Origin: Acidobacteriota bacterium
GTDB taxonomy: Bacteria > Acidobacteriota > Vicinamibacteria > Vicinamibacterales > CAVVIG01
Reading direction: 5' to 3'
Length of the DNA stretch: 39,063 nt
Assembly (NCBI GenBank): GCA_003222535.1
Contig: QHWJ01000240.1
Location: forward strand, 1 to 39,063
The notes beneath the pieces are model-generated. The model did not search any database, had not been told where the DNA came from, and saw only the letters and a program-made list of their open reading frames with translations. The position numbers and the translations under genes are program-made. Numbering within the stretch: position 1 is the first letter of the stretch; every line of letters starts with the position of its first letter. Positions 4,827 through 39,063 of the stretch are shown in pieces.

Positions 4827-6710
4827 CTAGCGACGGCCCGCGACGAGCTCCACGTAGCCGTCGCTGATGGTGTCGTCCGGGCTGGTGCCGAACAGCGCGA
4901 GCAGATCGGTGATGACGGCCGCCTTGTCCTGCGCGTCGCGCTGCGACCACGTGCGCGACTTCACCTCGATGAAATAACCGTCGCCCGGCGGGCTCAGCAG
5001 CCGATCGAGATGCACGTAGAACTCGACGCCCCGGTAGACGAGCAGCCACCGGCGCCGCTCCTTCTCGACGACGTGCTCGGCGGCCGGACGGAAGTACTCG
5101 CGGTAGAAGCGAGGCGAGTGCGCGGCCGGCGCGAGATACCGCGAGCGGAACAGGAGCACGCCGCCCAGGTCGGCTTCGCGCGTCCGGCCTGTGAGCGTGA
5201 GGCGCGCGCGCGCCCCGGTGACGTTTCCGGCTTCGTCCAGAAACTCGTCTTCACGGTAGCGCAGCCATCCCTGATCGGGATCATGGAACGACCAGTACGT
5301 GTCGAACTGGTGATAGTGGCTGGACCGGACAATCGTCACTCTTTTCCCCGCGATGACCGCAAGGACCTGCTCAGCCGACGGGACGCGGGCCTTGACCTGC
5401 ACCTCGAAGCTCTCCAACTCCACGGCGCCGCCGACCGCGACGAGCTTCTGCAGCACGCTCACCTCGCGGCCGCTGAGGAACGCGTCGACACGTTTCGCCT
5501 GCCCCCGCGCAGCCTCCCGCAGCTCGGCCTCGTCCAGCGTGAGGAGCTTCCGATCGCGCATGAGCCATCGGCCGTTGCACATTACATCCATCACGTCGGT
5601 GGACTTCGACGCGTACACGATCTGCGCGTAGACGCCGTTGGGATCACGGCCGAACGCGGGCACGTTGTGCAGCGGATCGAGGTCGACGATGATGAGGTCG
5701 GCGCGCTTGCCGGGCTCGAGCGATCCTGTCAGGTGATTCAGCAGCGCCGCCAGGCGCGTCTCCTCGAACATGTCCAGGTCGTTGTTGGACGCCGCGCCGT
5801 CGGTGCCGATGCCGACGTTCAGCCCGAGCTCCAGCATCCGGGCGACCGGCGCGATCCCGGCGCCGAGCTTCAGGTTGCTCGTCGGGTTGTGGGCCACGCC
5901 CGCGCCGACGTTCTTGAGCGCCCGCATCTCCCCGTCGTCCACGTGCACGCAATGCGCGGCGAGGACCTTCGCGTCGAAGAGCCCGTGCTTTTTCACCCAG
6001 GGGACGACCGGCATTCCGTTGACCCGCCGCGAGTCCTCGACTTCCTGGACGCTCTCCGACATGTGGATGTGGAGTGGCACGTCGAACTCGACCGCCAGCT
6101 CGGCGCACGCGCGAAGGATCTCCGGCGTGCAGGTATAGGGCGCGTGCGGCGCCGGCGCCGGCACGATCAACGGGTGCCCGCGCCACCGCTCGATGAAGTC
6201 GCGCGCGCGGGCCAGCGAGCCCTCGTAGCTCGTCGCATCGGGTGTGGGAAAGCGGAGCACGGTCTGCGCGCAGAGCGCCCGCATCCCGGCCTCGGCGGTC
6301 GCCTCGGCGATCGTTTCCTCGAAGTAATACATGTCGGCGAAGCAGGTGACACCCGACCTGATCATCTCGGCGCACCCGAGCCGTGTGCCGAGCCGGACGA
6401 AATCGGGGCTCACGAACTCGCGCTCGACCGGCAGCATGTAGCCCATGAGCCACACGTCGAGCCGCAGATCGTCGGCGAGCCCCCGCAGCAGCGCCATCGG
6501 CACATGGGTATGCGCGTTGACGAGCCCGGGCATCACCACACGCCCGAGACAGTCGATCGTCGCGCCGGCATCGTACGCGTCCGCGTCAGGCCCGACCGCC
6601 ACGATGCGGTCGCCCGCGATCGCCACGCGGCCGGACCGATACATCGTGAACTTCTGATCCATCGTCAGGACGGTGGCATTGGCGAGCAGGAGATCGCAGG
6701 GAGCGCGCAT
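4827..6710 (-). CDS. Amidohydrolase (MtaD/SAH-deaminase-like) fused to a C-terminal CYTH-like domain
   Basis: 627 residues. Residues 1-415 are a metal-dependent amidohydrolase of the 5'-methylthioadenosine/S-adenosylhomocysteine deaminase-like branch. Metal ligands are visible: NAHTH (H67, H69), HIHMSE (H216, E219), HCVH (H253, H256) and GTDGAASNN (D304), and SLEPGKRADL closes the fold. Residues from about 434 to the end look like a CYTH/class IV adenylate cyclase-type domain: ESFEVQVKARV resembles the family ExExK start with the second Glu replaced by Gln, followed by basic strands and FIEVKSRTWS near the end. Between AALL (321-324) and NHLTGS (325-330) about 35-40 residues normally present in this family seem to be missing in frame; the metal site is not touched. 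Likely cytosolic. The ATG at 6710 has no clear Shine-Dalgarno. Deaminase activity is inferred; the role of the fused domain, perhaps triphosphate or nucleotide binding, is unknown. Confidence 0.78.
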   Translation of the reverse strand: MRAPCDLLLANATVLTMDQKFTMYRSGRVAIAGDRIVAVGPDADAYDAGATIDCLGRVVMPGLVNAHTHVPMALLRGLADDLRLDVWLMGYMLPVEREFVSPDFVRLGTRLGCAEMIRSGVTCFADMYYFEETIAEATAEAGMRALCAQTVLRFPTPDATSYEGSLARARDFIERWRGHPLIVPAPAPHAPYTCTPEILRACAELAVEFDVPLHIHMSESVQEVEDSRRVNGMPVVPWVKKHGLFDAKVLAAHCVHVDDGEMRALKNVGAGVAHNPTSNLKLGAGIAPVARMLELGLNVGIGTDGAASNNDLDMFEETRLAALLNHLTGSLEPGKRADLIIVDLDPLHNVPAFGRDPNGVYAQIVYASKSTDVMDVMCNGRWLMRDRKLLTLDEAELREAARGQAKRVDAFLSGREVSVLQKLVAVGGAVELESFEVQVKARVPSAEQVLAVIAGKRVTIVRSSHYHQFDTYWSFHDPDQGWLRYREDEFLDEAGNVTGARARLTLTGRTREADLGGVLLFRSRYLAPAAHSPRFYREYFRPAAEHVVEKERRRWLLVYRGVEFYVHLDRLLSPPGDGYFIEVKSRTWSQRDAQDKAAVITDLLALFGTSPDDTISDGYVELVAGRR

Positions 6711-28738: not shown

Positions 28739-29686
28739 TCACCCACGTGCGCCGGCCGTCACACGCGGGACGGCGTCAGGGCCTGTCTGGTAAAAGGCGT
28801 ATTCTACAGCCGCGTCAAACCGGTCGAGCACCGAGTGCCGGTGGCTTCGGGTGTGGAGCTTCAGGTAATCGGGCTGCAGGCTCACCTGATCCGGCGAACA
28901 CCAGGATCCCGCCTTTCGCCGGAGATGCCACGTATAGAGCCGCCGGCACGCCGCCTCGACGAGCGGCGAGGGAACGCGAAGCACAATCTCCAGCAGCCGC
29001 TTGGCTCGGGCGAGACCGTGGCCCTGCGGCTCCGCGAGCGATGCGGGAGGCACGTCGGGCAGCCGCGTGATGCCGTTCGGATAGTACCGGATCACGAACG
29101 GATTGGCGGCGAGGAAGGCGTCGAGCAGGTCGTCGCCGATGAGCGGCTTCAGGTGAATCGCCTGGTTGGCGGTGAAGAGATCCTGCTCGTCGAGGGCGAG
29201 ATGGGAATCGGCCACGACAAAGTTGGCACACACAGTAAGCCGGCGCCGGAGGAGCTTCGTCAACACCAGCACTGCGACCGTCACCGTCCACACCCGCCGG
29301 CCCCGCGTCACGATGAAGAGATCGAGGTCGCCGTCGGCTTCCAGGTTCAGATGCGCGATGCTGCCCGACACCGCGACGAGGCGCGTGAACGGCAGCGCGC
29401 AGATCAGCCGCAGCGCCCGCCGGTGCCGCCGAAGGAACGCGCGGCTGTGCGCTTCGCGCCGGCGGCGCTCGGCGATCAGGTCCGCGCGGCCCTTGGGGAA
29501 AAAGAATCCGTCGCGGAACTCGACCATGCCGTGCAGCAGCTCGCTGCCGTCGTAGACGGCAAGGATCTCGGATCGCGTCTGATCGGATTCGATCAGGGCG
29601 TGGTGCAGCTGTTCGAGCGTGAGCGGATAGTCGAACAGCGAGGCGTAGATGACGCTGCGCGCGATGGCGAGCTCCCGCGACGTCAT
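28739..29686 (-). CDS. Nucleotidyltransferase-domain protein of the glycan locus
   Basis: 315 residues from ATG 29686 (MTSRELAIARSVIYASLFDY); an ATG at 29707 in the same frame lies in repeat DNA and is less likely. N-terminal winged-helix-like part (residues 1-60: DYPLTLEQLHHALIESDQ), then a nucleotidyltransferase core: VAVSGSIAHLNLEADGDLDL with G-S and the D-x-D pair. A hydrophobic helix follows (WTVTVAVLVLTKLL). The C-terminal half is helical. Proteins of this type recur beside polysaccharide genes, but their substrate is not established to my knowledge. It lies after the flippase on the same strand, separated by a 75-bp repeat. Confidence 0.7.
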   Translation of the reverse strand: MTSRELAIARSVIYASLFDYPLTLEQLHHALIESDQTRSEILAVYDGSELLHGMVEFRDGFFFPKGRADLIAERRRREAHSRAFLRRHRRALRLICALPFTRLVAVSGSIAHLNLEADGDLDLFIVTRGRRVWTVTVAVLVLTKLLRRRLTVCANFVVADSHLALDEQDLFTANQAIHLKPLIGDDLLDAFLAANPFVIRYYPNGITRLPDVPPASLAEPQGHGLARAKRLLEIVLRVPSPLVEAACRRLYTWHLRRKAGSWCSPDQVSLQPDYLKLHTRSHRHSVLDRFDAAVEYAFYQTGPDAVPRVTAGARG

Positions 29687-29695
29687 CCTGTCATC

Positions 29696-29770
29696 TCGCA
29701 CGTGCACCCTTGCACCTCACACCCCCGCACTTCCGCACCTCGTACCCCTGCACCTCGCACCTCGCACCAC
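29696..29770. repeat. Tandem GCACCTC-type repeats between flippase and nucleotidyltransferase genes
   Basis: Seven or so drifted copies of a 7-10 bp unit (gcacctcac, gcacttcc, gcacctcg, tacccct) fill the entire space between the flippase stop (29772) and the next start. It has only one arm, so it should not fold into a hairpin like the arrays at 3730 or 13113. Confidence 0.75.
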
Positions 29771-29771
29771 A

Positions 29772-31166
29772 TCAAACCATCACGCCATCACCGTGTTGCA
29801 CGTCACGAGCCTCGTGCGCGTACCCCCTGGCCCGGAGGGTCCACGCGCATCCGGCGGTCAGGAACACCTCGGTGCCGAGCGTGGCCCAGGCGGCGCCGCC
29901 GATGGACCAGGCGGGGATGAGGCGTGCATTCAACGCCACGTTGACGACCAGGGCGAGCGCGCAGACCGCTGCGTACGCCCGCTGGCCGTTCCATCCGACG
30001 AGCTGATGCGTCAGCGCCAGGTTGAGCGACAACAGCGGGAACGAAAGCAGCAGGATGCGGAATGCCGGGACGGCGGCCTCGTACCGCGCGCCATAGAGCA
30101 GCGGAATCAGCCAGCCGGCCGCGCTCCACGCGGCCGCCGCGGCCGCGATTGCAAAGCCGGTGATCGGCAGCGCCACGCGCGCGAGCGGCCTGAGATCGCT
30201 CGCGCGACAGAGCGACGGCAACGCGACCGCAACGACCGCCGCCGGAAACAGCCGCAGCGCATCGACCAGCCGGAACACGGCATTGTAGAGCGCCACCGAC
30301 TCGGTGCCGGACCATAGCTGGACGAGGAAAACGTCGACGCGGAAATACAGCGCCGACAGGACGATTCCCGCGCCGATCGGCCACACGTCGCGGCGGAACG
30401 CCTGCCACGGAACGAAGGGCGGGCCTTCAGGCCTGGCGACCTCGCGCAATCCGGGCGCGGCACCGCTGAAGCGATGCGCGGCACCGCTGAAGCGGGGCCT
30501 TACGCGGTGCCCTACGCTGTCTGACCGGAGCGCGAAGGCTTCAGCCGAGCGTTCGCGGCCGCCGAGCCGCACGGCGATCCGCAGGCTGACGATGAGGGTG
30601 ACGACCGCCGGCAGCAGCATCGCAACGCCCAGCAGGGTGACGTCGGGCCGCCACGCGAGCGCGAGCAGCCCGCATCCGAGCGTCGCCGTGCGGTGCCACA
30701 CGGTGACGGACGACTCCACGTCGCTGCGCGACAAGCCTCGATAGAAGTGGTGGAGGAGCTCAATCAGGCCGCTGCACGCGTAGACGAGCGCGAGCACGGC
30801 GATCGGCGTGGAGAACGCCGCGCTCCAGCCGGACACGAGCAAGCCGATCGCGACGAGGACCATTGCGCCGGCGGCAGTCCAGAGGCGGACGCGCAGCCAC
30901 CCGCCGAGCAGACGCGCCGCCTCCTCCGGCTGCCGCGCCACCGCGCGCGCGAGGTGAAGCTGTATGCCGAAATCGGTGACGACCGCGACCATCCATCCGA
31001 GCGTCGAGCCGAGCGCGAAGATTCCGAACGACTGGGCCGACAGCCGGCGCGCCGCGACGACGGTGATCGCGAACAGCGAGCCCTTGCCCGCCAGATCGGC
31101 GAACGCCTTGTAGGCGATCAGGAACGCGTCGGGCAGTTTCGCGTTTGGAAACGATCTTTCGTCCAC
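29772..31166 (-). CDS. Wzx-like oligosaccharide flippase (MATE/MOP superfamily)
   Basis: 464 residues with hydrophobic segments throughout, about 12-14 membrane helices by eye. The N-terminus AYKAFADLAGKGSLFAITVVAARRLSAQSFGIFALG matches the polysaccharide-flippase start (quoted in parts: DLAGKGSLFAITVVAARRLS). The mid part has YFRVDVFLVQLWSGTESVALYNAVFR, the usual R-x-D-x-x-x-x-x helix at the start of the second half (shortened: YFRVDVFLVQLWSGTESVAL). It would move lipid-linked sugar units across the inner membrane. An unusual cytoplasmic-loop insert (about residues 205-250) includes a duplicated heptad RFSGAAH/RFSGAAP from a 21-bp DNA duplication. Start is GTG 31166. It is divergent from the ligase gene. 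Confidence 0.85.
   Translation of the reverse strand: MDERSFPNAKLPDAFLIAYKAFADLAGKGSLFAITVVAARRLSAQSFGIFALGSTLGWMVAVVTDFGIQLHLARAVARQPEEAARLLGGWLRVRLWTAAGAMVLVAIGLLVSGWSAAFSTPIAVLALVYACSGLIELLHHFYRGLSRSDVESSVTVWHRTATLGCGLLALAWRPDVTLLGVAMLLPAVVTLIVSLRIAVRLGGRERSAEAFALRSDSVGHRVRPRFSGAAHRFSGAAPGLREVARPEGPPFVPWQAFRRDVWPIGAGIVLSALYFRVDVFLVQLWSGTESVALYNAVFRLVDALRLFPAAVVAVALPSLCRASDLRPLARVALPITGFAIAAAAAAWSAAGWLIPLLYGARYEAAVPAFRILLLSFPLLSLNLALTHQLVGWNGQRAYAAVCALALVVNVALNARLIPAWSIGGAAWATLGTEVFLTAGCAWTLRARGYAHEARDVQHGDGVMV
30455..30496 (-). repeat. Two tandem 21-bp units inside the flippase gene
   Basis: GCGCGGCACCGCTGAAGCG begins each 21-bp copy (30455-30475, 30476-30496); the copies differ only in the last two bases. 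Each encodes RFSGAA plus one residue. The repeat and flanks (30420-30540) form an in-frame insert between two membrane-helix blocks. Confidence 0.75.
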
Positions 31167-31300: not shown

Positions 31301-33202
31301 ATGGCCGGCAATACCCTTACAGACGCAGCGGCAGCCGTCGCGTCCGGCAGCGCACGCGGACCTGTGGTCCCCGAGCCTCACACCTCCCCCGCGGGGAGGA
31401 CCGCCTTCGCCGGCGTGGCGCTGCTGACACTCGCCGCGCCGTTCGAGCTCACCGAGCCTCTCCTCCGCCTGCCGCGTCAATCGGTGAGCTCACTTGAAAT
31501 GGCCCTGTTGCTCGCGTTCGCCGGATGGGGCGCGGCCCTCGTCTTCAGTGGATTTGTAGCGGAGTGGCGCACGCCGCTCACTCCGCCGTGGATCGCGCTG
31601 CTGCTCGCGATGCTCGTCGCGTCGGCCGCCTCGCCAGTCTCGCGGGTCAACGCGCTCCACATGACGGGCCGTCTCGGCGCGGCGTTCGGCGTGTACCTTC
31701 TGACGCTGAACGGCGTCTCCACGCGCGCGCGCCTGCGGACGATGCTGGCCCTCGCCCTGGCCGTCGGCGTCGTCGTCAGCGGGCTGATGATCCTCGAATA
31801 CATCGGCGTGCGGCCAGTGCTCGCCTGGCTCAGGCTGTTTCGACGCGACGTCGCCACGGTGGGCGCACAGGTTCGCGCGGGCGGCCCGCTCCAATACCCG
31901 ACGATCGCGTCGATGTATCTCGAGGTCGTCTTCGCGTTGGGCCTGGGCGTGCTGCTTGGCGAGCTCGATCGGTCGGCGCAGCCCGAGGTGAGAACTGAAA
32001 AGCCAGAAGGAACAACTCCCTTCAAGACAGCTTCTAAAGCCTCACCGGCAAGAACTTGCTTCATTTCGTCAGAACGCGGCTTCAGAAGATGTGCAGGCGT
32101 GGCGGCCGTGTTCGTCGCGCTGGTCGTCATCGGCGAGGCGATCACGCTGACGTTCACGCGCGCCGGGCTGGTCACGATGGCGCTGAGCCTGGCGCTCGTT
32201 GGCGCGATCCGCCGCACCCGGCGGGGGACCGAGAGCGGCGGGGCCCTGATCGCGTGTCTGGCGCTCGTGATCGCGGCATTGTTTCTGGTCTCGCGATCCC
32301 CGCGGTCGATGTGGCTGCGGTTCACGAGCGAAGGTCAGGAATCATGGTACCGCGCGAAGGTCGGCGCGCCGCCCGACCTCGACCTTCCCACCGGACGGAC
32401 CACGGCGGTTCCAGTGAAGGTGACCAATACCGGCCGGCTGCTCTGGGATTCCCGCGCCGATCCGCCGGTCCTGCTTTCGTACCACTGGCTGCCGGCCGAG
32501 GGCGATCACTTCGTGTCGTTCGAAGGCGTGAGGACGCCGTTTGCGTCGCCGGTCGCGCCCGACACGACGGTCTCGATGCGCGCAGTCGTCGGTGCCCCTC
32601 TGCGGCCGGGACGGTACCGCCTCGAGTGGGACATCGTGCAGGAAGGACGCCTCTGGTTCAGCACGGAACCGGGCGCGATTCGCTCGATATCACGCGCGAC
32701 GGTCACGGCCAACGCGCCGTGGAGCGGCGTCGAGCCGGCGATCATTCCGCCGCCTCATCCGACGGTGCGGCCGGGACGCTTCGTGTTGTGGCGCGCCGCC
32801 GGACGGATGATTGCGGCGCACCCACTCCTCGGCGTGGGCCCGGACAACTTCCGCTTGTCGTACGGCGCGTATGCCGGTCTCGCGACCGCCGATCCTCGGA
32901 CGCACAGCAACAACATGTATCTCGAGGTGCTCGCCGGTGGGGGGCTGCTCGCGGGCGCCGCATTCGTCTGGCTGCTGTGGCGCGCGGCCGGCAGTTTCGC
33001 CGCCGTCATGCGCCTCGCGCCGGATGCGGCCGGCGGGGCCGCGCTCGGGCTCGGCGCGGCGGGCCTCGCGATCGGCCTGCACGCCGCCGTCGATTCGTTT
33101 CTGAGCTTTGCTCCGACCTACGTGCTGTTCTCGCTGACCCTCGGATGCGCGTCCGCGTGCGTGCGCGACGCGGAGGCCCGGCCGGATGCGAATCGCGTTT
33201 GA
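31301..33202 (+). CDS. O-antigen ligase-like membrane protein (Wzy_C) with Ig-like domain in the periplasmic loop
   Basis: 633 residues from ATG 31301; the frame opens at 31229 without better signals. Many membrane helices. Wzy_C signatures: TLTFTRAGLVTMALSLAL (the T-x-S/T-R-x-G helix) and, much later, AAHPLLGVGPDNFRL with THSNNMYLEVLAGGGLLAG. These two blocks are normally separated by a modest loop. Here about 120 residues lie between them (346-466) with a beta-sandwich look: TTAVPVKVTNTGRLLWDS, VLLSYHWLPAEGDH, VSMRAVVGAPLRPGRYRLEW, IVQEGRLWFS. That suits an Ig/FN3-like domain in the periplasm. A second insert at about 230-262 (EVRTEKPEGTTPFKTASKAS and on) contains a dispersed repeat. The protein would polymerise or transfer a lipid-linked glycan. 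Its end overlaps the next gene by 17 nt. Confidence 0.8.
   Translation: MAGNTLTDAAAAVASGSARGPVVPEPHTSPAGRTAFAGVALLTLAAPFELTEPLLRLPRQSVSSLEMALLLAFAGWGAALVFSGFVAEWRTPLTPPWIALLLAMLVASAASPVSRVNALHMTGRLGAAFGVYLLTLNGVSTRARLRTMLALALAVGVVVSGLMILEYIGVRPVLAWLRLFRRDVATVGAQVRAGGPLQYPTIASMYLEVVFALGLGVLLGELDRSAQPEVRTEKPEGTTPFKTASKASPARTCFISSERGFRRCAGVAAVFVALVVIGEAITLTFTRAGLVTMALSLALVGAIRRTRRGTESGGALIACLALVIAALFLVSRSPRSMWLRFTSEGQESWYRAKVGAPPDLDLPTGRTTAVPVKVTNTGRLLWDSRADPPVLLSYHWLPAEGDHFVSFEGVRTPFASPVAPDTTVSMRAVVGAPLRPGRYRLEWDIVQEGRLWFSTEPGAIRSISRATVTANAPWSGVEPAIIPPPHPTVRPGRFVLWRAAGRMIAAHPLLGVGPDNFRLSYGAYAGLATADPRTHSNNMYLEVLAGGGLLAGAAFVWLLWRAAGSFAAVMRLAPDAAGGAALGLGAAGLAIGLHAAVDSFLSFAPTYVLFSLTLGCASACVRDAEARPDANRV
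32024..32046 (+). repeat. Copy of the 23-bp dispersed repeat, inside the ligase gene
   Basis: Matches 8855-8877 in reverse orientation with one mismatch, including the exact core CTTCTAAAGCCTCACC. It encodes part of the insert FKTASKASP within the ligase-like protein and keeps the frame. Confidence 0.7.
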
Positions 33203-36161
33203 CGGGACGGCGCTTCGGCCCGGGCGGACAGGTGTCGGTTATTACACCGAGCATCTGCTCCACCATCTCGCGCAGGTCGTGTCGAACGACGAGCTGATCG
33301 TGATCTCGAACCGCGCGATCGACACGACGTCGCCGCTGCCGCCCGGCGTACGGATTGCGACGCCGTCGCGGCGGGCGCCGCGGCTGGTCTGGATGCAGAC
33401 GCTCGCCGTCACCGCGATCCGAGAAGTCGAGGCGGACGTCGCGCACTTCACCAACGGCATGATCCCGCTCATGTCGCGCGTGCCGGCGGTGGTGACCATC
33501 CACGACATGAGCCTGCGGCTCTATCCCCGCCACCACCCGACGCGTCGCGTCCTGCTGAATCGTCCGCTGGTCGATCTCGCGGCACGCCGCGCCAACGCCA
33601 TCATCACCGTCTCCCAGAGCGCGAAGCGTGACATCGTCGGCGTCTACGGCCTCGATCCGGGTCGCGTGCACGTCGTGTATGAAGCGGCGGCGCCGTCGTT
33701 CAAGCGCGTCCTGGATCCCGCGGAGCTCGAGCGTGTTCGGCGCCGCTACGGGATCGACGACCGCGTGATTCTCTATGTCGGGACGATCGAGCCGCGGAAG
33801 AACCTGCCCCGGCTGGTCGAGGCGTTCGCGTCTCGACGGGGCACTGGCGAGTTGAGCCACCAACTCGTGTGCGTCGGCCCGTACGGGTGGCTGTCGCGCG
33901 GCCTCGAGGATCGCATCGCCCGCTTGAACGTCGCGCACGCGATCAACTTCACCGGCTACGTGCCGTTCGAAGACCTGCCTGCGCTCTACAGCCTCGCCGA
34001 GATGTTCGTGTACCCGTCGATGTACGAAGGCTTCGGCCTGCCGGTGATCGAAGCGATGGCGTGCGGAGCGCCCGTGATCACCGGACGCACGCCGGCGCTG
34101 GCCGAAATTGGCGGCGGTGCCATCCAGCACGTGGACCGCATCGAGTCCGACGAACTGGGCCGGGCGATGGTGGCGCTCGCGCGGAGCCGCGACCGGCGCG
34201 ACGAGCTGTCGGCGGCGGGTCTGGCTCGCGCGAGCACGTTTTCGTGGCGACGCGCCGCGAGCGAGAGCCTGGAGATCTATCGGGATGTGGCCACCGCACG
34301 GAGCCGCGTAAGAGCCGAGCCTGGTAGGCCCGTGCAGATGGCGACGCCGGGTGGGCCAGGCAGGTCAAGCGGGTTGGCCAGGCCGGATGGGGCAGGTAGG
34401 TCAGGTAGGTCGGGTGGGCCAGGCGGGTCGGTCAGGTCAGGTGGGTCAGGTAAGTGGGGTAGGGCAGGTGGGTCGGGCAGGTGGGGTACGTGGGGTAGGA
34501 CGGGTGGGTCAGGTGGAACCGGTGCGGCGCAACCGTCGGTCGGTGTGGCGCACACGTCCACCGATGTGTTGTTCGGACAGGCGTACTTCCTCCGGTTCGA
34601 TCCCAAGCTGTGGGAAGCGCGCCAGCCGTACGCGCCCCTTGGCGCTCTGTACGCCGCAGCCTGCGTGCGCGCGCGGGGTTACTCCGTGGCCTTGTTCGAT
34701 GCCATGCTCGCGGCCTCCGAAAGCGAATGGGCCGCCGCCCTCGATCGCCATCGTCCGCGCTTCGCCGTGATCTACGAGGACAATTTCAACTACTTGAGCA
34801 AGATGTGCCTGCTGCGCATGCGGCAGGCGGCGCTGACGATGATCGATGCCGCGCGCGCGCGGGGGATCACGACGATCGTCGCCGGCGCCGATGCGACCGA
34901 CCATCCCGCCACCTATCTCGAGCGCGGCGCGGACGTCGTCGTCGCGGGCGAAGGCGAAGTGACGCTGGTGGAACTGCTCGACACGATGTCCGGGGCAAGT
35001 GGGCGGGGTGGGTCGGGTGGGGCAGGTAGATCCACGGCGGAGGGGACGGGAGATCGGACCGGCGGGTTGAAGTCGGTTGCCGGCCTCTGGATTCGAGACG
35101 ACGACGGCCGGGCCGTACGAACGGGGACGCGGCCCATCATCGGCGACGCCGACGCGCTGCCGTTGGCCGCGTGGGATCTCGTCGACGTCGAGCGCTACCG
35201 GTCGATCTGGCGAGCGCGGCACGGCTACTTCTCGATGAACGTCGTGACGACGCGCGGGTGTCCGTATCACTGCAACTGGTGCGCGAAGCCGATCTACGGC
35301 CAGCGCTACACGGCGCGGTCACCAGAAAAAGTAGTCGACGAGATGGCGTGGCTGAAAGCGACGTATCAGCCGGACCATCTGTGGATCGCCGACGACATCT
35401 TCGGCCTCAAGCCCGGCTGGATCGAGCGGTTCGCGGCGCTGGTGCAGTCACGGGGCGCGGCCATTCCGTTCAAGTGCCTCCTCCGCGCCGATCAAGTGAC
35501 GGACAGCGTGGCGCGCGCGCTTCGGGCGGCCGAATGCCGCACGGCCTGGATTGGCGCCGAGTCGGGCTCGCAGAGGATTCTCGACGCGATGGAGAAAGGC
35601 ACGCGCGTCGATCAGATCGCCACGGCGACGCGGCTGCTGCACGAGGCGGGCGTCGAGGTCGGCTTCTTCCTGCAGTTCGGCTATCCCGGCGAGATACGCG
35701 AGGATATCGACCGGACGCTCGCGATGGTGCGCACCTGCGCGCCCGATGACATCGGCGTGTCGGTCTCGTATCCGCTGCCGGGGACGACGTTCTACCAGCG
35801 CGTGCAGGCGCAGCTCGGGCAGAAACGGAACTGGGTCGATTCGAACGACCTCGAGGTGATGTACCACGCGACTTACGTGCCGGACTTCTATCGCGCGCTG
35901 CACGCCCTCGTGCACTCGGAGTTCCGCGCGCGGAGGGCCGCTGACGCCTTGGCCCAGGTCGTCGCGCGGCCGTGGACGTTCACCCGGCGGCATGCGCGCG
36001 CGGCCGTTCACGTCGCGTATCACCGCGTGCAGGTGTCGCTGCTGCGGCGCCGGCTGAGCCGTCTCGCGGGGCTTACCGCGGCGGCGCCGCCGACGGGGCT
36101 CATCCCGCTGCTCACGCCGGATGCCGCGGCCGTGCCCACGGATCAGTCGTCGCTGAAGTGA
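33186..36161 (+). CDS. GT4 glycosyltransferase joined in one frame to a B12-binding radical SAM enzyme
   Basis: 991 residues without a stop. Residues 1-375 are a complete GT-B family 4 glycosyltransferase: MRIAFDGTALRPGRTGVGYY, VVTIHDMS, VSQSAKRDIVGVYG, LYVGTIEPRKNLPRLVEAF and YEGFGLPVIEAMACGAPVI with the E-x7-E motif. Residues about 386-448 are Gly/Arg/Ser-rich and encoded by a short-period repeat. From about 457 (TDVLFGQAYFLRFDPKLWEA) a B12-binding-domain radical SAM enzyme follows: AGADATDHPATYLERGADVV, GEGE, then TTRGCPYHCNWCAKPIYG (CxxxCxxC for the 4Fe-4S cluster) and AWIGAESGSQRILDAMEKGT. A GTG in frame at 34545 could start the second part alone, though with no clear SD. The first ATG overlaps the ligase gene. 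The natural reading is two ancestral genes whose spacer became coding. It is unknown whether one protein or two are made. Confidence 0.78.
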   Translation: MRIAFDGTALRPGRTGVGYYTEHLLHHLAQVVSNDELIVISNRAIDTTSPLPPGVRIATPSRRAPRLVWMQTLAVTAIREVEADVAHFTNGMIPLMSRVPAVVTIHDMSLRLYPRHHPTRRVLLNRPLVDLAARRANAIITVSQSAKRDIVGVYGLDPGRVHVVYEAAAPSFKRVLDPAELERVRRRYGIDDRVILYVGTIEPRKNLPRLVEAFASRRGTGELSHQLVCVGPYGWLSRGLEDRIARLNVAHAINFTGYVPFEDLPALYSLAEMFVYPSMYEGFGLPVIEAMACGAPVITGRTPALAEIGGGAIQHVDRIESDELGRAMVALARSRDRRDELSAAGLARASTFSWRRAASESLEIYRDVATARSRVRAEPGRPVQMATPGGPGRSSGLARPDGAGRSGRSGGPGGSVRSGGSGKWGRAGGSGRWGTWGRTGGSGGTGAAQPSVGVAHTSTDVLFGQAYFLRFDPKLWEARQPYAPLGALYAAACVRARGYSVALFDAMLAASESEWAAALDRHRPRFAVIYEDNFNYLSKMCLLRMRQAALTMIDAARARGITTIVAGADATDHPATYLERGADVVVAGEGEVTLVELLDTMSGASGRGGSGGAGRSTAEGTGDRTGGLKSVAGLWIRDDDGRAVRTGTRPIIGDADALPLAAWDLVDVERYRSIWRARHGYFSMNVVTTRGCPYHCNWCAKPIYGQRYTARSPEKVVDEMAWLKATYQPDHLWIADDIFGLKPGWIERFAALVQSRGAAIPFKCLLRADQVTDSVARALRAAECRTAWIGAESGSQRILDAMEKGTRVDQIATATRLLHEAGVEVGFFLQFGYPGEIREDIDRTLAMVRTCAPDDIGVSVSYPLPGTTFYQRVQAQLGQKRNWVDSNDLEVMYHATYVPDFYRALHALVHSEFRARRAADALAQVVARPWTFTRRHARAAVHVAYHRVQVSLLRRRLSRLAGLTAAAPPTGLIPLLTPDAAAVPTDQSSLK
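34351..34520 (+). repeat. Minisatellite encoding the glycosyltransferase-radical SAM linker
   Basis: About 170 bp of drifted 9-10 bp units (ggtgggtca, ggcaggtcg, ggtaggtcg, ggtggggta) with no C-run and no stop in the used frame. It encodes strings such as GRSGRSGGPGGSVRSGGSGK. It resembles the intergenic arrays of the window in period and base bias. Confidence 0.85.
34990..35031 (+). repeat. Short minisatellite block inside the first radical SAM module
   Basis: Units of ggtgggtcg/ggtggggca type encode GASGRGGSGGAGRS directly after the B12-binding half and before the radical SAM barrel. Same unit style as 34351-34520. Confidence 0.75.
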
Positions 36162-36166
36162 GAAGC

Positions 36167-37588
36167 ATGCGCAAACACCACATCGTCCTGTACAACCCGC
36201 GGGCGCCGTTCTTCACGATGCCGCTTGCGCTCATTGCGGTGGGGTCCGCGCTCGATCGATCGCGGTACGAGGTCACCCTCGTCGACGGACGGCTCGAACC
36301 GGATCCGGTCGCGCGCGTCCTCGATGCGACGGACGGGGCGTTGTGTCTCGGCGTCAGCGTGCTGACCGGCATCCCGATTCGCGACGCGCTGGGGGTGACG
36401 CGAGCCGTACGCGCGCGGCATCCGCGATGCCGGATTGTCTGGGGGGGCTGGCATCCGTCGCTGTTTCCACGCGAGACGCTGAACGAGGCCGGTGTGGACG
36501 CGGTTGTCGTCGGCCAGGGCGAGGAGGCCTTCGCGGATCTCGTCGAGCGGTTCGCGGCCGGCCGCACAGGACAAGACGGGCGGGACGGACAGGAGGGCGA
36601 GGACGGGGAGAACGGGCGGGACGCGACGGGCGCCATTGCACGGCGGCCGGCGCGCGACATCAACGACTTTCCCGAGCACGACTACGGCTTGATCGCGGTC
36701 GAGCGCTACTTCGCGCTCAAGCGCGAGCGGCAGCTCGATTACACCACGTCGCAAGGGTGCCGCTTCCGCTGCACGTTCTGCGCCGATCCGACCGTCTACG
36801 GACGCGCGTGGTCCGGCCTCGAGCCCGCTCGCGTGGCCACCGAGCTCGATCGCCTCTGGCATCGCCACCACTTCACCGACGTCGGCTTTCAGGACGAAAC
36901 GTTTTTCACCCACGCGAACCGTGTAGGCGCAATCGCCGAGGAGATTCTCGGTCGCGATCTCCACTTCACCTGGATGGCGACGATGCGCGGCGATCAGGGA
37001 GCGCGCCTGGACGAGCACGTGCTGCTGGCGTGCCGGCACGCGGGGCTGCGTCGCGTGATGATCGGGCTCGAATCGGGCTCGCAGCAGATGCTCGACTGGA
37101 TGAAGAAGGACCTGAAAGTGGAGCAGGTCTTCGTCACGGCGGAGAAGTGCCGCCGGCACGGCATCGCCGTACTCTGCAATCTCATCGTCGGGTTTCCGGA
37201 CGAACCGCCCGAGAGCGTGGCGGCGACGCTCGATGCGGCGAAGGCGCTTCGTGCGCTCGGCCCCGACTTTCAGGTCGCGCTGTTTTATTACCGGCCGTAT
37301 CCCGGGACTCCGATCACCGACGCGCTCGCGCGGCGAGGGCATCCGCTGCCGCGAAGCCTGGACGAGTGGGCCGCCATCGAAGAGAGCACGTCGCACAGCC
37401 CGTGGGTGGACGCCGGGAAGCGGGCGCTCATCGATCGGTTCAGCTTCTACCAGCGGATCGGCTGGGCGCGGCCGGACGCGTGGCGCGTGCCGCTGCAGGC
37501 GATTGCCCGGTGGCGCTGTCGCCGGGACGTGTACGCCTTCCCCATCGAGAAGACGATTGTCGAGTGGGTGCGACAGGTGCGCGCATGA
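36167..37588 (+). CDS. B12-binding-domain radical SAM protein
   Basis: 473 residues. ATG 36167 lies 5 nt after the previous stop; upstream sequence in this frame is only shadow. Residues 1-135 are a Rossmann-like cobalamin-binding region: HIVLYNPRAPFFTMPLALIA, VTLVDGRLEP, CRIVWGGWHPSLFPRETL, AVVVGQGEEAFADL. The classic D-x-H-x-x-G cobalamin His is not seen, as is common in this superfamily. A collagen-like insert GQDGRDGQEGEDGENGRD follows. The radical SAM core begins at about 185: TTSQGCRFRCTFCADPTVYG (CxxxCxxC), DVGFQDETFFTH, VMIGLESGSQQMLDWMKK, NLIVGFPDEPPES, VALFYYRPYPGTPIT. Relatives carry out radical methylations, ring formations and similar steps. It is a distant paralogue of the radical SAM part of the preceding gene. 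Its stop overlaps the next start (ATGA). Confidence 0.85.
   Translation: MRKHHIVLYNPRAPFFTMPLALIAVGSALDRSRYEVTLVDGRLEPDPVARVLDATDGALCLGVSVLTGIPIRDALGVTRAVRARHPRCRIVWGGWHPSLFPRETLNEAGVDAVVVGQGEEAFADLVERFAAGRTGQDGRDGQEGEDGENGRDATGAIARRPARDINDFPEHDYGLIAVERYFALKRERQLDYTTSQGCRFRCTFCADPTVYGRAWSGLEPARVATELDRLWHRHHFTDVGFQDETFFTHANRVGAIAEEILGRDLHFTWMATMRGDQGARLDEHVLLACRHAGLRRVMIGLESGSQQMLDWMKKDLKVEQVFVTAEKCRRHGIAVLCNLIVGFPDEPPESVAATLDAAKALRALGPDFQVALFYYRPYPGTPITDALARRGHPLPRSLDEWAAIEESTSHSPWVDAGKRALIDRFSFYQRIGWARPDAWRVPLQAIARWRCRRDVYAFPIEKTIVEWVRQVRA
36569..36622 (+). repeat. Six 9-bp units encoding collagen-like Gly-x-x triplets
   Basis: Six consecutive codon triplets, GQD GRD GQE GED GEN GRD, come from a 9-bp DNA period (ggN-cNN-gac style). 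They sit between the B12-binding region and the radical SAM core, the same place as the insert in the upstream paralogue. Confidence 0.8.
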
Positions 37589-38634
37589 CTCTGTCCGTCC
37601 TGGCCACGTCGGCGCTCGTGCGGCTCGGACAGGTGACGAACCGCACGTTCGTGCTGCCGCTGCTCATCTTCTATCCCACCGGGCGCTGCAACAGCCGGTG
37701 CCTGTCGTGCGACTGGTGGAAACAGAGCGGCGGCGACGATCTGACGCTCGACGAGATCCGGATCGTCGCCGCGTCCCTGCCGGCGCTCGGCACGCGCGTG
37801 GTCGCGTTCTCGGGCGGCGAGCCGCTGCTGCGTCCCGAGGTGTTCGAAGCGGCGGAGATCTTTCGCGCGCGCGGCCTGACGCTGCACCTGCTGACGAGCG
37901 GGGTGCTGCTGGAGCGGTTCGCGGAGCGCGTCGCGCGACACTTCGCGCGCGTCTCGGTCTCGCTCGATGCGACCACCGAGCCGCTGTACGAGCGGATTCG
38001 CGGGGTGGACGCGCTGGCGACCGTCCGGCGGGGCATCGCCCGGCTGCGGCGGTTGGCGCCTGAGGTGCCGCTGTCGGCCCGCGCCACGCTGCACCGCGCG
38101 AACTTCCGCGAGCTGCCGCGGCTGATCGACTACGCGAAGTCGCTGGGCCTCGACGGGATTTCGTTTCTGCCGGCTGACGTGTCCTCGCTCGGCTTCGGGC
38201 GCGACGCGCCGCCGAGCGCGGCCGCGCTCGCAAGGCTCGCGCTCGAACGGGCCGACATCGTGGACTTCGAGGCGATCATCGAGCGGACAATCGCGTTGTA
38301 CGCCGGCGATTTCGATTCGGGGTTCGTCGCGGAATCACCGGACAAGCTGCGCCGGCTGCCGCGGTACTACGCGGCGGTCGTCGGCGACGAGCCGTTTCCG
38401 CAGGTCTCGTGCAACGCGCCGTGGGTCTCGGTCGTGATCGAAGCGAACGGATCGGTGCGGCCGTGCTTCTTCCACGGGTCGATCGGCAATATCCGGAAGG
38501 CGCCGATCGCCACGATCGTGGCCGAGAACCTTCGTGTGTTCCGGCAGACGTTGGACGTCGGCGCCGACCCGGTGTGCGTGCGCTGCGTGTGCTCGCTGAA
38601 AACCACCTGGAGGAGCGCCCCATGGCTGATGTAG
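37585..38634 (+). CDS. Radical SAM protein with SPASM-like C-terminus
   Basis: 349 residues, MoaA/PqqE-like layout. Start ATG 37585 overlaps the previous stop as ATGA. Radical SAM cluster motif near the N-terminus: FYPTGRCNSRCLSCDWWKQ (CxxxCxxC), then VVAFSGGEPLLRPEVFEAAE (GGEP, SAM-binding) and VSVSLDATTEPLYERIRG. The C-terminus holds further Cys: VSCNAPWVSVVIEANGSVRPCFF and VCVRCVCS, consistent with an auxiliary 4Fe-4S cluster in a SPASM or twitch domain. Such enzymes modify peptides, sugars or cofactors. Position and tight coupling put it in the glycan locus, downstream of the two B12 enzymes. The substrate cannot be told. Confidence 0.85.
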   Translation: MTLSVLATSALVRLGQVTNRTFVLPLLIFYPTGRCNSRCLSCDWWKQSGGDDLTLDEIRIVAASLPALGTRVVAFSGGEPLLRPEVFEAAEIFRARGLTLHLLTSGVLLERFAERVARHFARVSVSLDATTEPLYERIRGVDALATVRRGIARLRRLAPEVPLSARATLHRANFRELPRLIDYAKSLGLDGISFLPADVSSLGFGRDAPPSAAALARLALERADIVDFEAIIERTIALYAGDFDSGFVAESPDKLRRLPRYYAAVVGDEPFPQVSCNAPWVSVVIEANGSVRPCFFHGSIGNIRKAPIATIVAENLRVFRQTLDVGADPVCVRCVCSLKTTWRSAPWLM

Positions 38635-39063
38635 GGCGGGCGTTTCAGGCTCGCCTCGGCGACCTTGAAAGAGCCGCCCTGCGCCGCGCCGAACGGGATA
38701 CCCAGCGCGCCTTCGACGGCGTTGCGGCGGGCTACGCCCGATCGAATGAAGGCAACCGCCTGCTGCGCCACATGCGTGCGCGCGCGTGGGAGGCGGTCGA
38801 AGCCTTCGTCCCCCGCGGATCGCACATCCTCGATCTCGGGTGCGGTCCCGGCTGCGACGAGGACCATCTGGCCCGACGGGGCTACCGCGTGACGGCGATC
38901 GACTGGTCCCCGGCGATGGTGGACGAGGCGCGCCGGCGCGTGCTGGCCGCCGGGCTCGCCGATCGCGTCGACGTCCTGCACGCCGGCATCCAGGAGATCG
39001 ATCAGCTCGCGCCCGTGCAGTTCGACGCCGCCTACTCGAACTTCGGCCCGCTCAACTGCCTCG
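38622..39063 (+). CDS. Class I SAM-dependent methyltransferase, 3' end outside window
   Basis: 147 residues before the window ends. ATG 38622 follows GGAGGAG (about 7 nt away) and overlaps the end of the radical SAM gene by 13 nt in another frame, which argues for translational coupling. A helical N-terminus with FDGVAAGYARSNEGNRLL leads to motif I, ILDLGCGPGCDEDHLARRGY, then VTAIDWSPAMVDEARRRV (motif II) and FDAAYSNFGPLNCL (motif post-I/IV region). The family methylates small molecules or lipids with SAM. It is the last visible gene of the glycan/radical SAM run, so the operon probably continues beyond the window. Confidence 0.85.
   Translation, partial: MADVGRAFQARLGDLERAALRRAERDTQRAFDGVAAGYARSNEGNRLLRHMRARAWEAVEAFVPRGSHILDLGCGPGCDEDHLARRGYRVTAIDWSPAMVDEARRRVLAAGLADRVDVLHAGIQEIDQLAPVQFDAAYSNFGPLNCL

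Follow-up and report, generated by a model that had tools for sequence, protein, structure and literature searches.

A candidate surface-directed glycoconjugate tailoring cassette with several B12-binding radical SAM proteins in Acidobacteriota and other phyla

The contig QHWJ01000240.1 of an Acidobacteriota bacterium (assembly GCA_003222535.1), 39,063 bases long and referred to below as the window or contig C375, carries on its plus strand a coupled run of five genes, WZY, GT4::RS1, RS2, SPASM and MT1, in which a GT4 glycosyltransferase and radical S-adenosylmethionine (SAM) proteins are encoded together. We read this run, with a probability of about 0.6, as the first half of a conserved, surface-directed cassette for the tailoring of a glycoconjugate. 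In the lineage of the window, the core of this cassette appears to be wired to a Wzx/Wzy-type export set that consists of a flippase, a Wzy_C protein, GT4 and the nucleotidyltransferase-like protein NT. The cassette is apparently undescribed, as a first-pass annotation of the window had also supposed for the run: none of the four radical SAM proteins that we scanned reaches the cut-off of a named family among the matches listed, and no description was found in the open-licence full-text literature of PubMed Central (PMC). The parts belong to known superfamilies; their combination, their spread and the subfamilies appear to be new.

The host genome comprises 8.06 Mb in 450 contigs, and MT1 is interrupted by the end of the window. 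The features of the locus are as follows.

28739..29707, minus strand: NT, winged helix and pol-beta-type nucleotidyltransferase-like protein, 322 aa (AlphaFold model; no Pfam match)
29772..31166, minus strand: FLIP, Wzx-type flippase (PF01943, Polysacc_synt, 64.1 bits, cut-off 28.2)
31301..33202, plus strand (open frame listed from 31229): WZY, Wzy_C O-antigen ligase/polymerase-type membrane protein (PF04932, 44.4 bits, cut-off 31.7)
33186..34300, plus strand: GT4 glycosyltransferase domain of GT4::RS1 (PF00534, Glycos_transf_1, 93.8 bits)
34301..34541, plus strand: Gly/Ser/Arg-rich linker of GT4::RS1 in low-complexity G-rich DNA (sequence; shorter in six relatives)
34542..36161, plus strand: RS1, predicted B12-binding radical SAM domain of GT4::RS1 (PF02310 47.0, PF04055 65.1)
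36167..37588, plus strand: RS2, second predicted B12-binding radical SAM protein, a variable member (PF02310 58.5, PF04055 64.7)
37585..38634, plus strand: SPASM, radical SAM/SPASM protein (PF04055 70.5, PF13186 35.8)
38622..39063, plus strand: MT1, class I methyltransferase, interrupted at the contig end (PF13649, Methyltransf_25, 53.9 bits)

The genes of the run are tightly packed: the WZY stop at 33202 lies behind the next ATG at 33186 (17-nt overlap), the GT4::RS1 stop at 36161 is followed by the RS2 ATG at 36167 (5-nt gap), the RS2 stop at 37588 overlaps the SPASM ATG at 37585 by 4 nt, and the SPASM stop at 38634 overlaps the MT1 ATG at 38622 by 13 nt. These junctions, as well as the strands and domains, had been given in the first-pass annotation and are borne out by the sequence, the open reading frames (ORFs) and Pfam. 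The six enzyme modules counted there are present in the order given, but they make up five genes, as GT4 and the first B12-radical SAM module lie within a single frame (33186-36161, 991 aa). Of its two divergent neighbors, the flippase and the orientation were confirmed, whereas the nucleotidyltransferase shows only a weak structural likeness to such enzymes. By Pfam, a flippase, a Wzy_C protein and a glycosyltransferase are present together in the window, as is typical of a Wzx/Wzy-dependent polysaccharide locus.

Comparison by tblastn with relatives in the family of the window's genome (f1; L and G numbers denote loci and genomes) revealed that the run is about half of the conserved unit. 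The gene order in f1 is NT and FLIP in reverse orientation, then WZY, GT4-RS1, (RS2), SPASM, MT1, (MT2), RS3, MT3, AMH and (WZX2, a flippase) in forward orientation, and finally GTb in reverse. This unit is intact in L044, L046 and L047 and is found in parts in L048/L049, L052/L053, L054/L055, L045 and L051. In the window's genome, the remainder, that is MT2 (cut), RS3, MT3, AMH and GTb, occupies the end of contig C125 (L066); because of the gene order in the f1 relatives, C375 and C125 are probably adjacent. The usual core, as judged from sequence, is formed by RS1, MT1, RS3, MT3, the amidohydrolase AMH and SPASM, with MT2, RS1b and RS2 as variable members. Among 120 genomes of the window's order, RS1 is present in 14, close orthologues of RS2 (51-61%) were found in five genomes from other families, and a truncated RS2 (69%) in G010 of f1.

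Two gene fusions were observed. GT4 and RS1 form a single frame in seven of the nine f1 genomes with RS1; in the 120-genome sample, the RS1 open frame spans 926-1007 aa in seven of these nine and 592 and 587 aa in G021 and G022. Translation of six relatives gave GT4-RS1 with no intervening stop, the linker of L047 containing unread bases. In another family, f23, AMH is encoded in one frame with an MT3-type methyltransferase in all four long-form loci that were read (L195, L196, L197 and L217), and the reduced f23 loci L215 and L216 have AMH without MT3. Each fusion is evidence for a pathway common to its two halves, and from the joining of GT4 with RS1 it seems likely that the product of GT4 is the substrate of RS1. 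The reduced loci contain MT1-RS1-MT2-AMH followed by GT1 and GT87 (by Pfam in L215, by eye in L216), and reference matches for RS3, SPASM, MT3 and RS1b were not found there; this form is a natural minimal version of the cassette.

The components also co-occur across genomes. Among 199 genomes of the phylum, RS1 was found in 18, RS3 in 17, SPASM in 14 and AMH in 13, and two further genomes show only weaker matches in the RS1b range; the line between RS1 and RS1b was drawn by eye, between the lowest RS1 row at 440 bits and the highest row of the RS1b range at 410, and a G244 row at 376 bits was taken for the second part of an RS1 that is split in this genome. RS1 is present in 16 of the 17 genomes with RS3, and RS3 in all 14 genomes with SPASM and in 10 of the 13 with AMH. 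The AMH genomes also include G215 and G290, in which AMH lies one gene from RS1 without RS3, and G231, which has neither RS1 nor RS3. Fisher tests gave p values of 1.7e-20 for RS1-RS3, 6e-19 for RS3-SPASM, 2e-10 for RS3-AMH and 6e-12 for RS1-AMH, which are indicative, as these genomes share ancestry and are not independent.

A similar pattern was obtained in the genus of Mucilaginibacter dorajii, which is distant from Acidobacteriota and where 49 of 80 genomes have both RS1 and RS3, two (G370 and G375) have RS1 alone, none has RS3 alone and 29 have neither (p 9e-20). In 46 of the 49 pairs, the two genes share a contig at 1.5-5.0 kb from start to start. Thus RS1 occurs in 51 of the 80 genomes sampled, and the named strain M. 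dorajii CECT 7660 carries the core (G163; L138). Neighborhoods were read in 11 loci of this genus, ten with long contigs and L138: RS1, RS3, MT1, AMH, an MT3-like gene and GT4 are present in all 11, SPASM in nine and MT2 in four; NT, GT2, a second GT4 and a Wzy_C-family gene in seven each; an ATP-binding cassette (ABC) exporter in five; and polysaccharide-deacetylase and GNAT families in four each, the Pfam names being derived from one or two copies each (one copy for the Wzy_C family).

To describe the wider distribution, genome contigs were scanned with the RS1 alignment; at least 529 places were confirmed, of which the 80 best were analyzed, many of these loci being short or cut. By record title, they comprise 43 Chloroflexota-type, 11 Bacteroidota, 9 Ignavibacteria/Chlorobi, 8 Acidobacteria, 2 Myxococcales, 2 Actinomycetota/Acidimicrobiales, 1 Schekmanbacteria, 1 Rhodobacteraceae, 2 unnamed and 1 Bifidobacterium breve records. 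The last one, CALQBJ020000070.1 (L071), holds an Acidobacteriota f1-type locus, and its title is probably wrong. The partners observed in the 80 loci are NT (54), MT1 (51), GT4 (21), MT2 (19), RS3 (15), WZX2 (15), GTb (13), AMH (12), SPASM (11), FLIP (9), WZY (8), MT3 (6) and RS2 (5); in 42 of them, NT lies on the strand of RS1 and directly upstream of it, at a distance of less than 700 nt. Wzy_C, glycosyltransferases and NT recur next to the core in three phyla, and flippases recur in separate phyla. For instance, the Chloroflexota loci L089 and L098 have the order FLIP-WZY-GT4-NT-RS1, and L099 contributes a further, Pfam-confirmed Wzy_C.

The conservation of these neighbors, which the first-pass annotation had proposed as a check, was assessed in 38 RS1 loci with full 6-kb flanks (of 76, L072-L147) and in 18 controls with full flanks (of 20), the latter being other B12-radical SAM loci of the window's order. 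Using hidden Markov models (HMMs), Wzy_C was detected within 6 kb of 10 of the 38 RS1 loci vs none of the 18 controls (p 0.013), with the bias that the Wzy_C and glycosyltransferase HMM seeds had been taken from RS1-type loci. NT (29/38 vs 0/18), MT1 (28/38 vs 0/18) and MT2 (11/38 vs 0/18) likewise distinguish the RS1 loci. Any glycosyltransferase or Wzy_C is nearby in 24 of 38 RS1 loci vs 11 of 18 controls, which is no difference.

The latter result is one of several that weigh against a surface glycan. In the same comparison, GT4 alone is marginally enriched (21/38 vs 5/18, p 0.049), GT2 is not (8/38 vs 8/18), flippases are weakly enriched (13/38 vs 2/18, p 0.063), and within 6 kb RS3 (6/38 vs 1/18), SPASM (5 vs 1), MT3 (3 vs 0) and AMH (6 vs 0) show no significant enrichment; moreover, the controls were drawn from the window's order and the test loci mostly from Chloroflexota or Bacteroidota. 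The shared ancestry behind the Fisher tests belongs here as well. The argument that glycosyltransferase neighbors prove a glycan was dropped because the controls show equal proximity. In L138 of M. dorajii, the core and GT4 are present and Wzy_C, GT2, exporter and NT families were not found; WZY or flippase reference matches were not found in the f23 loci either, where GT87 adjoins the core in L195 and GT1 and GT87 in L215 (Pfam), likewise in L197 and L216 by eye, with none seen in L217. Wzy and flippase proteins were therefore rejected as core members, and Wzy-type export is not intrinsic to the cassette. Sugar-nucleotide and initiating phosphoglycosyltransferase genes were not found among the seven window proteins scanned with Pfam and NCBIfam, the scan being confined to these seven. 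Finally, of 50 genomes reached via RS1 loci (seven more were left out), 29 have an RS3 match and 21 do not, which may be due in part to incomplete assemblies. In five Chloroflexota loci (L206, L207, L208, L213 and L214), RS3 is located away from the cassette. The idea that RS3 is beside RS1 everywhere was thus discarded. A MiaB-like ORF, named by eye, was noted in the RS3 neighborhood of L206, L207, L208 and L214, which suggests that RS3 can act outside the cassette.

By domain content, RS1, RS2 and RS3 are predicted B12-binding radical SAM proteins. The PF04055 cut-off (29.5) is passed by RS1 (65.1), RS2 (64.7), SPASM (70.5) and RS3 of L046 (33.2), and the PF02310 cut-off (32.1) by RS1 (47.0), RS2 (58.5) and RS3 of L046 (43.8); PF02310 was not detected at E 0.001 in RS1 of L255, the single RS1 scanned from the M. 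dorajii genus. The CxxxCxxC motif is invariant in RS1 (25/25), RS3 (14/14) and SPASM (11/11) and was read for RS2 in the window sequence. The SPASM protein passes PF13186 (35.8, cut-off 21.5), and five C-terminal cysteines are also invariant in it (11/11).

Assignment to known families failed throughout. Among the NCBIfam matches listed (the best 25 of 57 for RS1, 25 of 28 for RS2 and 25 of 49 for SPASM of the window, and 16 of 16 for RS3 of L046), no named cut-off is reached; the top matches are HpnJ for RS1, a ladderane-type model for RS2, BchE for RS3 and AhbD for SPASM (65.3 of 500). The scores of RS1, RS2 and RS3, respectively, are 121.9, 107.3 and 90.7 for HpnJ (TIGR03471, cut-off 577.6); 74.5, 64.8 and 48.9 for AprD4 (NF033070, 500); 106.0, 106.5 and 109.7 for BchE (TIGR02026, 481.35); 111.0, 107.4 and 39.5 for rSAM_ladder_B12 (TIGR04072, 360); and 72.7, 39.3 and 35.5 for B12_rSAM_oligo (TIGR04295, 400). 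Because the four proteins stay below every cut-off among these matches, HpnJ, BchE, AprD4, ladderane-type, MgmA-type and TIGR04295 identities were rejected.

The placement of the radical SAM proteins in a tree, also proposed in the first-pass annotation, gave separate clades. Among 131 sequences, RS1 (43/43), RS1b (28/28) and RS3 (25/25) form clades with support of 0.99-1.0 and RS2 (17/17) with 0.63; since labels were given by best-match reference, monophyly tests those labels. The rows are a hand-picked subset of loci, from which pieces of 330 aa or less, the control loci L235 and L248 and one L199 entry were left out. RS1 pairs with RS1b (0.999) and RS2 with RS3 (0.998), each of the four clades crosses phyla, and 18 other B12-radical SAM proteins of the window's order fall outside all of them. 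The structural model of RS1 (predicted local distance difference test, pLDDT, 80.5) is closest by VIA to AprD4 (Z 26.2, root-mean-square deviation 3.3, 426 aligned residues, 20% identity), followed by OxsB (24.0), MgmA (23.7), CysS (22.6) and TsrM (22.2); Foldseek ranks MgmA, TsrM and AprD4 in this order.

For the window NT, which has no Pfam or NCBIfam match, the AlphaFold model (pLDDT 90.6) shows a winged helix and a pol-beta-like nucleotidyltransferase fold, with weak winged-helix matches over residues 1-75. Residues from about 84 to 205 are weakly similar by VIA to ANT(4'') (Z 7.9) and MNT (Z 7.0), values below 8 that may reflect a common arrangement only. No Foldseek match was obtained at E of 0.001 or lower, and a third catalytic acid was not identified in the putative nucleotidyltransferase part. 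In AMH, H59, H61, H184, E187, H214 and D267 are invariant in nine of nine sequences (HxH, HxxE, H and D), a ligand pattern that we take to resemble that of adenosine/S-adenosylhomocysteine (SAH)-type deaminases. Its PDB matches are amidohydrolases including deaminases, and AMH of L044 stays under the deaminase cut-offs (40.9 of 522 for NF005557 and 34.6 of 779 for NF012037). A second amidohydrolase of 627 aa is encoded in the window (4827-6710, minus strand); it is 24% identical to AMH over 201 columns and by eye resembles methylthioadenosine (MTA)/SAH deaminases with an extra C-terminal domain.

We propose the following pathway: (i) GT4 would add a sugar to a lipid-linked acceptor, (ii) the fused RS1 would remodel this sugar by C-methylation, deoxygenation or rearrangement, as HpnJ or AprD4 do, (iii) RS2, RS3 and SPASM would make further radical changes, (iv) MT1-MT3 would carry out O-, N- or C-methylation, (v) AMH would deaminate an intermediate or the SAM by-products 5'-deoxyadenosine and SAH, and (vi) the flippase and the Wzy_C protein would export the product and polymerize or ligate it. 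The export role is proposed on the basis of the flippase and Wzy_C families. The step assigned to RS1, which we hold to be plausible at somewhat less than even odds, draws on the HpnI-HpnK-HpnJ precedent and on the amino-sugar substrate of AprD4. The MT3::AMH fusion is compatible with by-product removal and does not prove it. In a bolder form, up to four paralogous B12-radical SAM proteins (RS1/RS1b and RS2/RS3), SPASM and up to three methyltransferases would reshape a lipid-linked sugar in its carbon skeleton and so yield a hypermodified residue, with a dedicated deaminase clearing or editing adenosyl by-products on site, which would be a new pathway class present in several phyla; we consider this unlikely. 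As for the earlier suggestion of a radically modified surface glycan or its lipid carrier, what stands is a conserved unit with Wzy_C, glycosyltransferases, flippases and NT recurring across phyla, but glycosyltransferases or Wzy_C are no more often nearby than at the controls, Wzy-type export is not intrinsic to the core, and the product is one that we infer.

The absence of Wzy and flippase matches from the f23 and M. dorajii cores could also mean that the core makes a small specialized metabolite or glycolipid with a radical-tailored, multiply methylated aglycone, which the glycosyltransferases decorate and for which Wzy_C and the flippase are lineage-specific company. The reduced form of L215, in which a UDPGT-type GT1 and GT87 come after MT1-RS1-MT2-AMH, agrees with this explanation, as does the lack of sugar-nucleotide genes among the seven scanned window proteins; yet Wzy_C lies beside the core in three phyla and near none of the 18 controls, and GT4 is fused to RS1, so we regard it as rather unlikely. 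SPASM and B12-radical SAM enzymes often act on peptides, and RS1 weakly matches ApyD (94 of 750 bits) and rSAM_ocin_1 (56 of 282), as would be expected if the cassette modified a ribosomally synthesized and post-translationally modified peptide (RiPP). This is very improbable: all scores for RiPP models are far under their cut-offs, no leader-recognition or peptidase gene is among the scanned proteins (no dedicated search for a precursor peptide was made), and the recurring partners are glycosyltransferases. That AMH, with ligand residues of deaminase-type amidohydrolases invariant in 9/9, and the methyltransferases merely provide SAM-by-product housekeeping around unrelated radical SAM genes loosely sharing a locus is hardly credible, since, although control B12-radical SAM loci also lie near glycosyltransferases, RS1 and RS3 co-occur almost strictly in the M. 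dorajii genus and the genes are collinear and joined in two separate fusions.

Among described systems, the glycoconjugate cassette can be compared with HpnI-HpnK-HpnJ, in which, as PMC12583986 describes, HpnI transfers GlcNAc to bacteriohopanetetrol, HpnK removes the acetyl group and the cyclitol ether is then formed by the radical SAM protein HpnJ; PMC5462960 reports a survey of this gene set in Acidobacteria. In that system, one lipid-linked sugar is handled in turn by a glycosyltransferase, by a deacetylase and by a radical SAM protein. HpnJ is the top NCBIfam match of RS1 (121.9 bits), and a deacetylase family is present in four of the 11 loci of the M. dorajii genus; in contrast, RS1 is far under 577.6, and besides RS1 the cassette has up to four other proteins of the radical SAM type, as well as three methyltransferases, AMH and Wzy_C.

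AprD4, the radical SAM diol dehydratase of apramycin, is the nearest solved fold of RS1 by VIA and acts on paromamine, a compound of the amino-sugar type (PDB title). However, RS1 scores 74.5 bits vs 500 at 20% identity, Foldseek places MgmA and TsrM higher, and AprD4 has an antibiotic gene context, whereas that of the cassette is of envelope type. Wzx/Wzy-dependent surface polysaccharide loci share with the window a flippase, a Wzy_C protein and GT4 in one locus; unlike them, the cassette is dominated by radical SAM and methyltransferase genes, its core also occurs without Wzy_C, and neither an initiating transferase nor sugar-nucleotide genes were seen in the scanned part of the window. The TIGR04295 family consists of B12-binding radical SAM proteins for which we read a possible oligosaccharide context from the model name, but RS1, RS2 and RS3 score far under 400.

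Several coding regions of the locus contain repeats. A repeat of about 68 bp within WZY (window 32024-32092) is dispersed over the genome, with at least 38 other places, a few of them matching other parts of the query (40 of 296 candidates scored). It makes up the greater part of an in-frame insertion of 37 aa that is absent from six relatives, and it is reminiscent of the Rickettsia palindromic elements. A second repeat type in FLIP (30470-30640) has at least 50 other short matches, some of them close together (40 of 428 candidates scored), and FLIP has extra residues there relative to three relatives. G-rich degenerate short repeats at 34340-34520, 35000-35050 and 36560-36620 and in RS3 of L066 encode Gly/Ser/Arg/Asp tracts in RS1, RS2 and RS3, which either precede the B12-binding and radical SAM domains or separate the two. 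L053 and L055 also carry a tract at this position of RS1, and the other aligned RS1 rows have none there.

Most of what is known about the chemistry of B12-radical SAM enzymes concerns antibiotics, cofactors and membrane lipids. If our reading is true, a cassette with multiple radical SAM proteins beside surface-glycan export genes would represent a new type of envelope chemistry, and several unnamed radical SAM subfamilies would gain substrates. The cassette lends itself to testing because its carriers include M. dorajii CECT 7660 as well as 51 of the 80 genomes sampled in that genus.

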